Shown: positions 51,437-56,909 of the stretch, in pieces | How the letters are laid out: each line of letters begins with the position of its first letter | Position numbering within the stretch: position 1 is the first letter of the stretch | Assembly (NCBI GenBank): GCA_016432585.1 | Contig: CP066696.1 | Span: 310,001 to 374,000, forward strand | Direction of reading: 5' to 3' | Source: Candidatus Saccharibacteria bacterium | Lineage (GTDB): Bacteria > Patescibacteriota > Saccharimonadia > Saccharimonadales > Saccharimonadaceae | Length of the DNA: 64,000 nucleotides | Program-made: the position numbers and the translations under genes | Notes under the pieces: generated by a model | The model's database searches: none | Seen by the model: the letters and a program-made list of their open reading frames with translations, nothing else | Told to the model about the DNA's origin: nothing

Positions 51437-51895
51437 ATTTCGCATGACGATCAGAACATCTGGCCGATCACCATCTCCACCTGGCTGCTCACGGTCAGCT
51501 TGCGGATCTTGCCGTCCGTGTCGAACTCGACGAGGTCAGCGGAGGGGATGACGACCGTCTGGCCCGTGGGCGGGTATGAGATACCCCACCCGTCGGTGAG
51601 TGGTCCCGAGAAGGTGACAGTCATGTCATAGGAGACACGAAGCGTGTCGCCTTTCTCTGCGACTTTGGCGACCTTGACGTTCTTTCCCAGATCCGGGAAG
51701 GCCGTCCGCTGCCGTGTGATCTCTTCCCAGAAACCCTCGAATCGTAAGGGTCCCTTGCCGAGTTCGGCGCGGAAGTCCCGCGAAACGAGTGCTGCCACGG
51801 CCGCGCGGTCATCGTTCGTGACCCCGTCCGTGAACGCCTTGTACGTGGTTTGATGCGGAGATATCACTGGTACTGTCCCATCTGCGAATGGGCGC
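51432..51895 (-). repeat. Complementary 5' and 3' arms of cassette I
   Basis: The leader sequence at 51895-51883 (GCGCCCATTCGCA) and TGCGAAATGGCGC at 51444-51432 after the stop can pair over twelve positions with two one-base bulges. The second arm overlaps the terminator. Confidence 0.4.
51451..51867 (-). CDS. SnoaL-like/NTF2-fold protein, cassette I
   Basis: This 138-residue protein is of the SnoaL-like ester-cyclase/NTF2 group: AFTDGVTNDDRAAVAALVS, WEEITRQRTAFPDL and DLVEFDTDGKIRKL are typical. Function in this family varies from polyketide cyclisation to ligand binding. The start is GTG, with a weak GATGGGA region upstream that lies in a CCCAT-TCGCAG-ATGGG hairpin. It is GC-rich, with its own promoter TTGAAT-N16-TATAAT. 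Confidence 0.72.
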   Translation of the reverse strand: MISPHQTTYKAFTDGVTNDDRAAVAALVSRDFRAELGKGPLRFEGFWEEITRQRTAFPDLGKNVKVAKVAEKGDTLRVSYDMTVTFSGPLTDGWGISYPPTGQTVVIPSADLVEFDTDGKIRKLTVSSQVEMVIGQMF

Positions 51896-51913
51896 CGGTG
51901 TAGCGCCTGTGTT

Positions 51914-51941
51914 ATTATAAAAGATAACGAAAATAATTCAA
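51914..51941 (-). promoter_or_regulatory. Promoter of cassette I
   Basis: On the minus strand TTGAAT (51941-51936), 16-base spacer, TATAAT (51919-51914), then a leader with GGCGC/GCGCC and CCCAT/ATGGG stems. Confidence 0.65.
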
Positions 51942-51956
51942 GTACTACATGTATGT

Positions 51957-51983
51957 GCCCGCCGAACTGGATGTCCGGCGGGC
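51957..51983 (-). terminator. GC hairpin after the GNAT gene
   Basis: GCCCGCCG (51957-51964) pairs with CGGCGGGC (51976-51983), six bases after the stop. There is no T-run on the minus strand. Confidence 0.5.
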
Positions 51984-51989
51984 GATTGA

Positions 51990-52682
51990 TTAGGGGAGTG
52001 TGACGTTTGCGTCAGCCCATTGCAGCGCCTCTAGGGTGACGGCGCGGGCGGCTACGGCTGCTTGTGAAGGCGTGTCCTGCCCCCACCAGTTGCTCCAGAA
52101 TGGCTCGAGCGGGTTAAGGCACTCAAGATTATCCTGGTGGCGAAGCTCTCCGTTCGTGTAGCAGGTGTTTCGCTCCACGTAGACATGGGTATAGCCGCTT
52201 TTTTGAAGCGCCTTCAGGCTAGCGACGTTTCCTTGAATGACCGCGGATTTGATCCGGGTGATTCCAAGTTCGCGAAACGCAAACCATGTCCTCGCCTTGT
52301 GGATATAGCTGGCGATACCTTTGCCCCAGTACTCCTTATCGAAGATAAGGACACCACTTGTCGCTTGCTTGATGCCGGTGCGTCCATGCTCGATTGCGTT
52401 GAGGCCGGACGTGCCGATGAGCGTGCGCTGATTGTCCTCGATAATCCAGATTCCCCAGATCATCGAATCTTTGTTCGCGCGGACACTGTCGTACCACTCC
52501 AGCTCATCCTCGAGTACGGGTGCCGACTGCCGGCCCAAAAAACGGACAACAGGGTAGCTTTGCATGCCTCCGGTGGAAGCGAATGAGCCCATTGCGTCTT
52601 TTTGCAAAGGCGCAAGCTCGACAACGATATCGTTGCCCTCGGTCTGCGGCACGGTGAGCCGCATGACTGGTCCAAATGCCAT
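51990..52682 (-). CDS. GNAT N-acetyltransferase, cassette J
   Basis: This 230-residue protein has a GNAT domain of the RimJ/RimL type: IWGIWIIEDNQRTLIGTSGL, the acetyl-CoA loop EYWGKGIASYI, and GNVASLKALQKSGYTHV in the typical motif B region. It should acetylate a small molecule or protein amino group. AGGAGAGG lies four bases before the ATG. A leader with a 32-codon ORF, a terminator and a competing arm precedes it, suggesting induction, for example by an antibiotic. Base composition is higher in GC than neighbours. Confidence 0.8.
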   Translation of the reverse strand: MAFGPVMRLTVPQTEGNDIVVELAPLQKDAMGSFASTGGMQSYPVVRFLGRQSAPVLEDELEWYDSVRANKDSMIWGIWIIEDNQRTLIGTSGLNAIEHGRTGIKQATSGVLIFDKEYWGKGIASYIHKARTWFAFRELGITRIKSAVIQGNVASLKALQKSGYTHVYVERNTCYTNGELRHQDNLECLNPLEPFWSNWWGQDTPSQAAVAARAVTLEALQWADANVTLP

Positions 52683-52703
52683 TGTTCCTCTCCTTTTCTT
52701 TAT

Positions 52704-52724
52704 GGTTTCAGTATTTCTGAAACC
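52704..52724 (-). promoter_or_regulatory. Perfect eight-pair hairpin before the GNAT ribosome-binding site
   Basis: GGTTTCAG-AAATA-CTGAAACC on the minus strand lies between the terminator and AGGAGAGG. Confidence 0.6.
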
Positions 52725-52728
52725 AGAG

Positions 52729-52781
52729 AAGCCTCCGATATTCGATTGTTTGTACGAAAAAACCTCCGAAGTCGGAGGCTT
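52729..52781 (-). terminator. Terminator with competing antiterminator arm before the GNAT gene
   Basis: On the minus strand AAGCCTCCG-ACTT-CGGAGGTTT followed by TTT (52781-52757) is an intrinsic terminator. TCGGAGGCTT (52738-52729) downstream is the exact complement of AAGCCTCCGA, the terminator's 5' arm, over ten bases, so the two structures are mutually exclusive. Confidence 0.65.
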
Positions 52782-52802
52782 ATCTCGTTTCGCAAATGAA
52801 GT

Positions 52803-52901
52803 TTAGATTACAAGATAAGCCACGCAGTGTGAATTGCCGCCCTTAAGCATGTCGTGTGATGCGACGCGGCAAGATTCAATCTGTGTGGCTATATAATTCA
52901 T
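52803..52901 (-). CDS. 32-residue leader ORF upstream of the GNAT gene
   Basis: The ORF starts MNYIATQIESCRVASH and ends SHCVAYLVI. ATG 52901 lies ten bases after an extended -10 TGTGGTATAAT on the minus strand. It has two Cys and two His (C11, H16, H25, C26), so it could bind metal, or its translation could govern the terminator just downstream. No family is recognised. Confidence 0.5.
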   Translation of the reverse strand: MNYIATQIESCRVASHDMLKGGNSHCVAYLVI

Positions 52902-53000
52902 AACATTTCGTATTATACCACAATTATATAAAAAAGAAATAATTTAGCATGAGCTTTTCTATTGTAGTGGCCACTGTTTTAGCATAAAATTAGATCAAGT

Positions 53001-56000
53001 ATGAAGTTGGGTGATCGAAGCATACGGCCACTTAGGCGCATGAGGGTGCGAAAGTGGAGGCTACAAGCCTTTTTGGGTGTTGCTTTTCTGATCGCTGCAA
53101 TAACCCCACTCTCTATGACATGGCTGGAAAACGTAAGTGCTGACTGTGCTTGTTCGCTTTTCGGTACTCCTACGGGCGCTTCTAACTTTAGCGAAGGCGC
53201 CGACCTAGAGCTGGGCGTGAAAGTAATACCCGATCAAGATGGCTATATTAGCGGCGTAAAGTTTTATAAGCAAGGGGCGATGTCGGGTGTTCACACGGGT
53301 AGGCTTTGGGCTGCGAACGGAACGCCTTTGGCATCGATAACCTACACTGAGACGGCGTCTGGCTGGCAGGAAGCGACATTTTCTACGCCTGTTTTTGTAA
53401 CGGCGGGTACAACGTATGTCGCTTCAACGACATTTAACGACGGGCGATATATCGCAACCAGTAGTTATTTTACGACCGATATTATCAATGGTCCGCTAAA
53501 AGCACCTTCATCTGCCAGTTCGGGTGGTAATGGAGTTTTTGCAGGTAATGGTGGCGATTTTCCAGCTAGCTCGTTTAATGCAGCGAACTATTGGATAGAC
53601 GTCATTTTCTTTGCGACAGCGCAACCGGAAGTGACGGCGGTTACTCCAACGGCGGGCGCGACAAATGAGCAATTAGGAACGACGATATCGGCAACGTTCA
53701 GTACAAGTATGGACACTGCGACGCTAACCAGTGATAAATTTATTGTAGAAGATGCTTCGGGTGATCCCGTTCCGGGTGTTATTAGTTACGATGGCGCATC
53801 TAAAACAGCATCGTTTGTGGCAGATGAAGGCTTTGAGGTTAATACCGAGTATACAATTTTATTAAAAGGTGGAACCGGGGATGTTCTTAAAAACAACGCC
53901 GGCCTGCCGCTTGCAGCCGACTATACATGGTCATTCACCACAGCCGCTACGAATGCGTGCCCGTGTTCGCTAAAGGATAAAGTTAATCCGACGAATGTTC
54001 TTACGGCCAGCGAGGCGGCCCCTGTTGAGCTTGGGGTGAAAATTAAGCCAAGTAGCAACGGCTACATTACCTCGCTGCGATACTTTAAACCCTTGCTAAG
54101 TAACGACACAACGAATGCGGCGAGGGTATGGAGCTCGACTGGCACGAGTCTTGCCACGGCGACATTCGACAACCAGTCTGATTATGGCTGGCAAGAGGCA
54201 AAACTTTCAACGCCTCTCCGTGTTTATAAAAATCAGTTGTATATAATTTCATACACAGCCTCGAGTACTTATGTTTCTTCGAATGGCGCGTTGACAGGGC
54301 AGAATATCCAAAATGGATATCTGACTGCTTTCGCAAACGACTCGGCCGAGAATGCGGCGACGTCGAGCGGAAATCGCAACGGTGTATTTAATATCAGTGG
54401 CGGTAACTATCCGGGTACGGGAAGTACCACGGGTAACTACTACTGGATTGATGCCGTTTTCTCGACTACGTCAACTATTACTAATCCACTAGCTGTTGAA
54501 GTGACGCAGCCAAGTAGTGGAGCCTATGGTATTGCTGCCGACGCCGAAATCACCGCCCAGTTTAATAGGGTTCTGGATAATGCAACGGTAACAAATGCAT
54601 CGTTTCGATTATTTAATTCGAGCGGCACGCAGGTAAGTGGTGCCGCTAGCTACGACTCTCGAACCGGAGGCGCGCTGTTTACCCCGTCGAGTCCTCTTTC
54701 TGCCGGTGCACGTTACACGGCTAAAATTGCCGCATCTGTTGCTGATGGCGACGGTGTAGAACTAGGATCGGAATATGAATGGAGCTTTACCGTTGGAAGC
54801 GCAGCTTCACCAACCCTCTCTCAGGGTGCGGGTGGTCCGATTCTTGTTGTGACATCTGCGGCAAATCCATACAGCACCTACTATGCCGAAATCCTACGAG
54901 CAGAAGGCTTAAACGAATTTGAAGTAAAAGATATCGATGATATCACGCCAACCGTTCTTACCAACTACAATGCTGTTATATTGTCTGAACTGTCTTTAAG
55001 CGCTGCTCAGGCTACTGTCTTTACGACTTGGGTGAATGCCGGGGGTGATCTTGTGGCTATGCGCCCCGATAGTGATCTTGCGAGCTTACTTGGAATAAGT
55101 TCTGCCGGGGGAACATTGACGAATCAATATCTTATGATCGACACAACTCAGGCTCCTGGCGAAGGGCTTGTTAATGAAACGATACAGTTTAAGGGTGTGG
55201 CCGATAACTACACCCTAAATGGCGCGCGTGCGGTGGCGACACTTTACAGTGATGTTTCGACAAGTACGACTAATCCTGCTGTAACAACCCGCCAAGTAGG
55301 GACAAAAGGTGGCTCGGCGACAGCATTTACCTACGATCTTGCGAAATCCGTAATCGCTCTCCACCAAGGCAATCAGGCTTGGGCGGGGCAAGAGCGTGAT
55401 AGTAGCTCGCCGCGCCGGCCAAATGATCTGTTTTTTGGAGCGAAAGCCGGAGACGTGCAGCCTGATTGGGTTAATCTTAACAAAATGCACATTCCTCAGG
55501 CAGATGAACAACAGCGTTTGCTGGCGAACACGATCATCGATGCCACAAAAGAGGCGCAACCATTGCCGCGTTTTTGGTATCTGCCACACGACTACAAAGC
55601 GGCGATGGTAATGGCGGGTGATGATCATGGGTTAAGTAATGCCAATGGCACCGAAAAAATCTTGAATAACTGGCTGAATGATAGCCCTACTTATTGCTCC
55701 GAAATGGATTGGGAGTGTGTTCGCGCGACACATTATATTTATGCAAGCTCTGCGTTAACAAACACACGTGCTGGTCAGTACTATAATTTGGGATTCGAGA
55801 TCGGTGATCATGTTGACAGCGCCTGTACAAACCTTTCGTATGCGGCAACACTTAATCAATATAATGCAGATCTCGCAATATGGCGGGCTAAGTACACAAG
55901 CTTACCCGACCAGCTTTCTCACCGGTTCCATTGTTATGCTTGGGGCGATTGGGACAGTCAAATCAAAATTGATGATGTACTAGGAATTAGATACGATCTT

Positions 56001-56909
56001 AACTACGTCGCTTACCCGGCATCATGGATTGGGTCAAACGCGACGGTTATAACAGGGTCGGCCATGAATATGCGATTTACCGATGCAACGGGCGGTATGC
56101 TTGATGTTCGCCAAGGTGTGACGAACTTCGACGATCAGGCATCGACAGCGACAAATATCAATGCCACACTGGCAAATGCGGTCGGGGCAGCTGGGTACTA
56201 CGGAATTTTTGGCACGCACTACGATATGACGAATACGTTTGATAAAACGCTTGCAGCAGCAGCGCGAACGTACAACATACCTATGATTAGTGCTGAACAA
56301 GCGCTGTTGTGGCAAGAGGGTCGTGAAAGCTCGACAATCAGCGACATGACAGCGACGGTTGGGCGAACTAGCTTTACGCTGTCGCCTGCCGAAGGCGCAA
56401 ATGGTCTCCGGACGATGCTGCCCGTGTCAAACGGCGGAGGCAGCCTAACGACGTTGCTGCGAGGTGCAAGTACCGTCTCGTTTGATATAAGTACGATCAA
56501 AGGTATCGAGTATGCTGTATTTGATGCGCTACCAGGAGAGTACGAGGCGACATACAGCAACTACACACCGCCAGTCGATGAGGAGCCGGAAACGCCAACG
56601 CCAGAAGAGCCGGGTGTGCCTTCGTCGCCAGATGGTGGAAGCGGAAACGAAGACGGTGCTACAGGACAGCCTGGAGCCGGAGGCGGCGCTGTGGAAGGAC
56701 CTGAAGAGACTCCTACCGATGCTATTCCTGAAGAGCCGGTTAATCAAAACGAAGAGCCAGGCGTGCAACAGCCGCAGACGCAGGATGAGACCAAAAAACC
56801 CACAGTCGATAATTCGCTGTGGGTATGGATAGTTGGTGGGTTCGTATTTGTGGTGTTGTCGGGGCTGTTGTTTATAGGAATACGTCGACGAAGTCACGAA
56901 CAAAACTAA
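53001..56909 (+). CDS. Large surface-anchored multidomain protein (DUF4082 and Big_5 repeats, deacetylase-like domain)
   Basis: This 1302-residue protein has a basic N-terminus and a hydrophobic helix (~residues 22-41) serving as signal or anchor, and a C-terminal Pro/Glu/Gln-rich linker followed by a transmembrane helix and RRRSHEQN. Two DUF4082 domains (~50-208 and ~325-490; GYISGVKFYK and GYITSLRYFK) alternate with two SbsA-type Big_5 Ig-like domains (PEVTAVTPTAGATNEQLG at ~210). A glutamine-amidotransferase-like region (~610-700) and a polysaccharide-deacetylase-like region (FWYLPHDYKAAMVMAGDDHG onward) follow. Glycan binding or modification at the host interface is likely. Confidence 0.72.
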   Translation: MKLGDRSIRPLRRMRVRKWRLQAFLGVAFLIAAITPLSMTWLENVSADCACSLFGTPTGASNFSEGADLELGVKVIPDQDGYISGVKFYKQGAMSGVHTGRLWAANGTPLASITYTETASGWQEATFSTPVFVTAGTTYVASTTFNDGRYIATSSYFTTDIINGPLKAPSSASSGGNGVFAGNGGDFPASSFNAANYWIDVIFFATAQPEVTAVTPTAGATNEQLGTTISATFSTSMDTATLTSDKFIVEDASGDPVPGVISYDGASKTASFVADEGFEVNTEYTILLKGGTGDVLKNNAGLPLAADYTWSFTTAATNACPCSLKDKVNPTNVLTASEAAPVELGVKIKPSSNGYITSLRYFKPLLSNDTTNAARVWSSTGTSLATATFDNQSDYGWQEAKLSTPLRVYKNQLYIISYTASSTYVSSNGALTGQNIQNGYLTAFANDSAENAATSSGNRNGVFNISGGNYPGTGSTTGNYYWIDAVFSTTSTITNPLAVEVTQPSSGAYGIAADAEITAQFNRVLDNATVTNASFRLFNSSGTQVSGAASYDSRTGGALFTPSSPLSAGARYTAKIAASVADGDGVELGSEYEWSFTVGSAASPTLSQGAGGPILVVTSAANPYSTYYAEILRAEGLNEFEVKDIDDITPTVLTNYNAVILSELSLSAAQATVFTTWVNAGGDLVAMRPDSDLASLLGISSAGGTLTNQYLMIDTTQAPGEGLVNETIQFKGVADNYTLNGARAVATLYSDVSTSTTNPAVTTRQVGTKGGSATAFTYDLAKSVIALHQGNQAWAGQERDSSSPRRPNDLFFGAKAGDVQPDWVNLNKMHIPQADEQQRLLANTIIDATKEAQPLPRFWYLPHDYKAAMVMAGDDHGLSNANGTEKILNNWLNDSPTYCSEMDWECVRATHYIYASSALTNTRAGQYYNLGFEIGDHVDSACTNLSYAATLNQYNADLAIWRAKYTSLPDQLSHRFHCYAWGDWDSQIKIDDVLGIRYDLNYVAYPASWIGSNATVITGSAMNMRFTDATGGMLDVRQGVTNFDDQASTATNINATLANAVGAAGYYGIFGTHYDMTNTFDKTLAAAARTYNIPMISAEQALLWQEGRESSTISDMTATVGRTSFTLSPAEGANGLRTMLPVSNGGGSLTTLLRGASTVSFDISTIKGIEYAVFDALPGEYEATYSNYTPPVDEEPETPTPEEPGVPSSPDGGSGNEDGATGQPGAGGGAVEGPEETPTDAIPEEPVNQNEEPGVQQPQTQDETKKPTVDNSLWVWIVGGFVFVVLSGLLFIGIRRRSHEQN

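Follow-up and report, generated by a model that had tools for sequence, protein, structure and literature searches.

A candidate ribosome-mediated transcription attenuator with a predicted (near-)leaderless upstream ORF preceding acetyltransferase and transporter genes in Patescibacteria

The gene for a GNAT acetyltransferase in the single-contig genome (952,504 bases) of a Saccharibacteria bacterium is probably controlled by a ribosome-mediated four-segment transcription attenuator that is run by a leaderless or nearly leaderless upstream ORF (uORF). The gene and its leader reside on the minus strand of the window, i.e., the whole stretch of 64,000 nucleotides that was analyzed, and 52 leaders of the same build were found in Patescibacteria, several classes included. 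As judged by sequence comparison, which provided the anatomy, the covarying helices, the promoter spacing and the targets, the leaders feature a short ORF that opens the predicted transcript (51 leaders), an intrinsic terminator between this ORF and the gene (with exceptions regarding the T-tract in leaders L002 and L007) and a covarying antiterminator, S2:S3, that is mutually exclusive with the terminator. In silico, the position of the ribosome decides which fold is adopted when compared with codon-shuffled controls.

On the minus strand, promoter, 32-codon ORF, terminator, competing arm, hairpin P and GNAT gene follow each other in this order. The original prediction had named an extended -10, a 32-residue ORF, a terminator, a complementary arm and a GNAT ribosome-binding site (RBS), and every one of these elements was found where it had been placed:

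52912-52920, minus strand: extended -10 element TGGTATAAT of the leader promoter, ending 10 nt before the uORF ATG, with a predicted 5' UTR of about 3-4 nt
52803-52901, minus strand: uORF of 32 codons, MNYIATQIESCRVASHDMLKGGNSHCVAYLVI, plus stop, kept at the same place in relatives
52874-52890, minus strand: S1, AGCCACACAGATTGAAT, 5' arm of the uORF-internal helix and putative anti-antiterminator arm, pairing with 52818-52834
52811-52823, minus strand: S2, GTGGCTTATCTTG, putative antiterminator arm in the last uORF codons, opposite S3 at 52777-52787
52772-52787, minus strand: S3, CGAGATAAGCCTCCGA, common to the antiterminator (with S2), the terminator (with S4) and the S3:S5 helix
52757-52779, minus strand: predicted S3:S4 intrinsic terminator, GCCTCCGACTTCGGAGGTTTTTT, hairpin and T-tract
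52772-52781, minus strand: 5' arm of the terminator, AAGCCTCCGA, exact complement of TCGGAGGCTT
52729-52738, minus strand: TCGGAGGCTT, exact complement of the terminator 5' arm
52725-52738, minus strand: S5, TCGGAGGCTTCTCT, the competing arm of the original prediction, 14 nt complementary to S3 with one mismatch
52703-52725, minus strand: hairpin P, TGGTTTCAG-AAATA-CTGAAACCA, located between S5 and the RBS and showing covariation
52687-52695, minus strand: GNAT RBS, AAGGAGAGG
51990-52682, minus strand: GNAT acetyltransferase of 230 aa, RimJ/RimL-SpeG-like (PF13302, E 4e-15)

The exact complementarity over ten bases that had been claimed for the terminator 5' arm and the arm farther downstream likewise holds true (52772-52781 vs. 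52729-52738). The 219-nt leader folds more strongly than its dinucleotide shuffles (z = -5.6), and the same applies to the part that follows the ORF (z = -5.3). The interval 51868-51989 (minus strand) contains a GC-rich hairpin directly after the GNAT stop codon and a separate promoter-like site that precedes the next minus-strand ORF, which is SnoaL-like (51451-51867), so that GNAT is probably alone on its transcript. Divergently from the leader promoter, the plus strand encodes a large protein that matches DUF4082 twice and Big_5 twice (53001-56909).

GNAT orthologs were found in 151 near genomes, 393 class-level genomes and a named collection, and the same leader build was found at 27 of the distinct orthologs. 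In some genomes, GNAT copies occur without the leader (L010, L011, L014, L031-L033 and L043); genome G409 features two tandem GNAT paralogs of the same family, L031 and L043, both of which lack it. A covariance model (R1) derived from 25 GNAT leaders matched 35 of the 393 class genomes, and in the 16 of these 35 that are outside the GNAT-ortholog set the matches precede MFS transporters or, in two cases, a different GNAT. With an extended model (R2), nine further genomes were recovered, of which seven lie outside the class, though in the same phylum, and only GNATs or MFS transporters are located downstream. All sense-strand matches of the covariance models (44 genomes) are followed either by an MFS transporter or by a GNAT from one of three groups, where the targets of the R2-added and some further leaders were assigned by reading translations instead of by family scan and the largely masked MFS transporter of L090 was assigned from its first residues. 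The ten targets that were scanned all pass Pfam MFS_1 or, for two GNATs, Acetyltransf_3. Matches off the sense strand are only antisense shadows of the same places. A second leader copy was not found in the genome studied here, its plus-strand match (G000, 362669-362814) being the palindromic reverse of the same element. Genome G116 contains two leaders, L015 and L125, one before a GNAT and one before an MFS transporter, while the other genomes have a single one.

Joint scoring of -35 and -10 elements of the sigma70 type gave a sharp peak for the promoter position, while the best -10 by hexamer score alone was noisy. In 51 of 51 leaders, the distance between the end of the -10 hexamer and the uORF ATG is 6-11 nt (6 nt in 22 leaders and 9 nt in 14), a -10 end 5-10 nt before the ATG is present in 49 of the 51 vs. 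14% in shuffles, and 65% of the scored leaders have an extended -10. The usual distance from the -10 element to the start site is 6-8 nt. From this spacing a 5' UTR of 0 to about 4 nt is deduced and the uORF is therefore predicted to be leaderless or nearly so. Five of the 51 genes in the window have a good promoter with a -10 ending 5-11 nt before the start codon (plus-strand starts 10158, 17665, 47865, 49946 and 53001), and as far as promoter positions tell, the genome may contain many leaderless mRNAs.

The uORFs comprise 24-55 codons (median 33, 51 leaders). They were chosen by eye for each leader, such that frame 0 is open by choice; this choice is nevertheless informative because open spans in other frames are rare, with the other two frames open over the uORF span in only two and five of 51 leaders, respectively. 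The second codon is mostly AAC or AAT. Apart from an MN start, the peptides have little in common; many GNAT leaders of the window's family additionally encode a Gly-Gly pair. The latter is common at residues 18-22 in these leaders and mostly absent elsewhere, and its distance from the uORF start hardly varies. In the window, the pair is encoded at 52836-52841, by codons at which stalling of a ribosome is predicted to release S2. Selection on the peptide appears weak (pooled pN/pS 0.57, for pairs chosen for their similarity), and because of this weak constraint the peptides do not define a specific stall site. Substitution counts and peptide comparison speak only weakly for a conserved stall peptide, the Gly-Gly pair of many GNAT leaders being suggestive. 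The unusual Cys/His pattern noted originally is real in the leader peptide of the window and is not conserved in relatives.

The leader switch is predicted to consist of four segments, with S1 and S2 inside the uORF, S3:S4 as terminator and S2:S3 as antiterminator. S1 covers about nt 10-25 of the uORF and its partner is S2 or the bases just upstream of S2. Complementarity between S1 and S2 amounts to 22.6 as compared to 17.1 ± 0.5 for swapped partners, a value not reached in any of 10,000 permutations. S2 reads GGCTTATCT in many leaders, and S3, AGATAAGCC, follows the uORF stop. For S2:S3, 90% of the cells are paired (32-52% in sliding controls), seven of nine pairs show changes on both sides and none of 500 shuffles reaches the covariation score; the pairing was also examined over 35 leaders. 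Against swapped partners, z is 11.0 in 50 leaders and 5.6 within the 17 MFS leaders alone, which were found with models starting from GNAT leaders. Shuffle and swap controls leave some relatedness, and the MFS and outside-class leaders are distant. RNA duplex energies with free bulges proved too noisy for S2:S3 specificity and were replaced by ungapped complementarity with permutation. In nearly all leaders, the terminator hairpin and T-tract are located 40-60 nt past the uORF stop. In L002 and L007 (1358-1488 in both) the S3:S4 hairpin is kept and the T-tract is lost, perhaps reflecting a change in how the gene is controlled.

Folding of each transcript as far as the terminator was predicted at equilibrium, not co-transcriptionally, with a ribosome footprint of 30 nt positioned on each codon in turn. 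The mean terminator probability is 0.85 without a ribosome, about 0.43 (range 0.39-0.46) when codons 2-10 occupy the P site and about 0.8 at codons 15-20, followed by a dip to 0.65 some ten codons before the end and by 0.94-0.95 at the end of the uORF. Codon-shuffled uORFs yielded 0.90-0.91 in all states (P about 1e-24), and because they stay flat, it is the order of the uORF sequence and not its composition that creates the pattern. For the leader in the window, the values are 0.95 without a ribosome, 0.2-0.5 at codons 1-11 and 0.96 at the end, with a second dip to 0.2 where the second residue of the Gly-Gly pair is encoded (codon 22). Little or no switching is predicted for L009, L015, L086 and L103. 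These equilibrium models predict a three-state logic: off without a ribosome, off during fluent translation and on when the ribosome stalls early.

In the proposed mechanism, transcription would start at or beside the uORF AUG. Without a ribosome, S1:S2 would pair within the uORF, leaving S3 to S4, and the terminator would stop RNA polymerase. During translation at normal speed, the ribosome at the uORF end would cover S2, and S3:S4 would again terminate transcription. A ribosome that slows down or stops within about the first 12 codons would block S1 and thereby free S2, as would, in many relatives, a stall about ten codons before the uORF end. S2:S3 would then form before S4 emerges, the terminator would fail and GNAT, or elsewhere an MFS transporter, would be transcribed. 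Translation of the uORF, actual termination, a response to ribosome-targeting compounds and a detoxifying role of the targets are presumed in this scheme. Comparison and folding lend good support to inducible attenuation of GNAT by a translated leader as originally put forward, whereas an antibiotic as the inducer is suggested solely by the kinds of target genes.

The attenuator may work as described while its natural signal is polyamine stress, a shortage of charged tRNA or slow translation in host-detached cells, a reading to which we assign an appreciable chance, albeit one clearly short of even. It is consistent with the lack of enrichment of the peptides in any one amino acid and with their poor conservation, which fits generic sensing of slow translation. 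By sequence, GNAT is RimJ/SpeG-like; its predicted fold (mean pLDDT 92.8) has a lasso-peptide acetyltransferase, the polyamine acetyltransferase SpeG, RimJ and PA3270 as nearest solved folds, two of which, SpeG and RimJ, point in the same direction. Since all of these share only 14-22% identity with it, the structure does not decide the substrate. No curated family of resistance GNATs (AAC, ArsN1 and others) was matched, all NCBIfam scores being far below cut-off. What argues against a non-antibiotic signal is the alternation of GNAT targets with MFS transporters; these fall into several subgroups and distantly resemble tetracycline and macrolide efflux proteins. None of their NCBIfam matches, among them tetracycline-efflux, HP1165 and Mef-type models, comes close to its cut-off. 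CPR genomes have been reported, on the basis of sequence matches, to carry many resistance-like genes (PMC8651080).

The most strongly covarying helix of the leader is S3:S5, with 87% of the cells paired, changes on both sides in nine of 14 pairs and a covariation score reached by none of 500 shuffles. It is kept in 48 of 50 leaders, being absent from L009 and L029, and yields a z of 15.6 against swapped partners and of 7.9 within the 17 MFS leaders alone. Covariation between the terminator arm and the downstream arm in relatives, on which the original prediction had staked itself in advance, is therefore present. The role assigned to the downstream arm had to be revised: as S5 is transcribed after the T-tract, it cannot antiterminate, and S3:S5 can form only in readthrough transcripts. 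The competing arm S2 in the last uORF codons is better placed and has its own sequestering helix within the uORF. In most leaders, S3:S5 has a single mismatch at a position at which S2:S3 pairs perfectly. Hairpin P, which like S2, its sequestering helix and the spacing between -10 and ATG had not been named in the original prediction, is conserved as well (two-sided changes in eight of nine pairs, covariation score reached by none of 500 shuffles). A counterpoint to the attenuator model is that it does not require S3:S5, the strongest helix. Release of S2 after antitermination, an RNase III site and stabilization of the mRNA are possible roles of S5. To our knowledge, the post-terminator module of S3:S5 and P has not been described for any other attenuator.

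The position of S5 and P just upstream of the RBS, the CCUCC in S3, which resembles an anti-Shine-Dalgarno sequence, and the hairpins of L002 and L007 without T-tract would fit a translational attenuator of the ermC/toiL type, in which the GNAT RBS is masked in one fold and accessible in the other and S3:S4 is no working terminator. We consider this unlikely, since a T-tract follows the hairpin in nearly all leaders and predicted RBS accessibility is the same with and without an in silico block of S5 (0.46 vs. 0.47, P = 0.38), which does not support RBS control through S5 or, as far as pairing of S5 is concerned, an ermC-type switch. Likewise improbable is a metabolite-binding riboswitch with the folded region as aptamer and an accidental ORF, for which the strong folding and the alternative structures with a terminator might speak, yet the region from promoter to S2 lacks a conserved core and varies between 24 and 55 codons while ATG spacing and open frame are retained in 51 of 51 leaders, the other frames are closed in 46-49 of the 51 and no Rfam family matches. 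With Rfam release 15, only tRNAs reached the gathering score, all other matches being sub-threshold.

Returning to the ribosome-mediated transcription attenuator, its four-segment logic (1:2, 2:3, 3:4) is that of the trp/his-type attenuators. The latter differ in having a run of regulatory codons and biosynthetic targets, while S2 of the Patescibacteria leaders is inside the leader ORF; an amino-acid attenuator was rejected in view of the unremarkable composition of the leader peptide and the lack of a repeated codon. Leader ORF, intrinsic terminator, antiterminator and anti-antiterminator are shared with bmrB-bmrCD of Bacillus subtilis, for which the same logic was established by experiment and removal of the leader start codon abolishes induction (PMC4191407). 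Its dependence on translation and its target, a multidrug transporter, are further likenesses (PMC4191407). In contrast, the bmrB terminator is located inside the leader ORF and not 40-60 nt past its stop, and the (near-)leaderless uORF, the S5/P module after the terminator and the GNAT or MFS targets set the Patescibacteria leaders apart. In Escherichia coli toiL-topAI-yjhQ, the whole leader ORF senses ribosome stalls caused by several drug classes, but control acts on the RBS and via Rho (PMC12121999), whereas the Patescibacteria leaders have a predicted intrinsic terminator upstream of the gene. Mycobacteria have many short ORFs that are leaderless (PMC4633059), and the whiB7 uORF is a sensor of ribosome-targeting antibiotics from several classes (reviewed in PMC12121999); phylum, segments and targets are different and neither a sequence nor a structural relation to these was apparent.

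While the kind of attenuation is known from bmrB and trp-type systems, the family, its leaderless design and its GNAT/MFS targets appear to be new; neither an attenuator nor a leaderless leader ORF from Patescibacteria was found in the literature searched, many subscription papers being outside that search. A bolder reading, tentative and given slightly less than even credence, is that these phylum-wide leaderless-uORF attenuators constitute a translation-stress response in which ribosomes loading at a 5'-AUG test elongation, stalls, e.g., caused by antibiotics of host or neighbors, induce one detoxification gene per genome, either an acetyltransferase or an exporter, and readthrough mRNA is locked or processed by the S3:S5 and P module. 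How Patescibacteria regulate their genes has hardly been studied, and systems for inducible expression in them are lacking (PMC11665869). The leaders offer a compact, native and phylum-conserved cis-acting switch and thereby a testable translation-stress response, and the genes downstream of them merit tests for a role in detoxification in epibionts. The leader could serve as an inducible promoter-leader for Patescibacteria genetics, and with this family, ribosome sensing by leaderless leader ORFs would be extended to a phylum without a described case in the literature searched.
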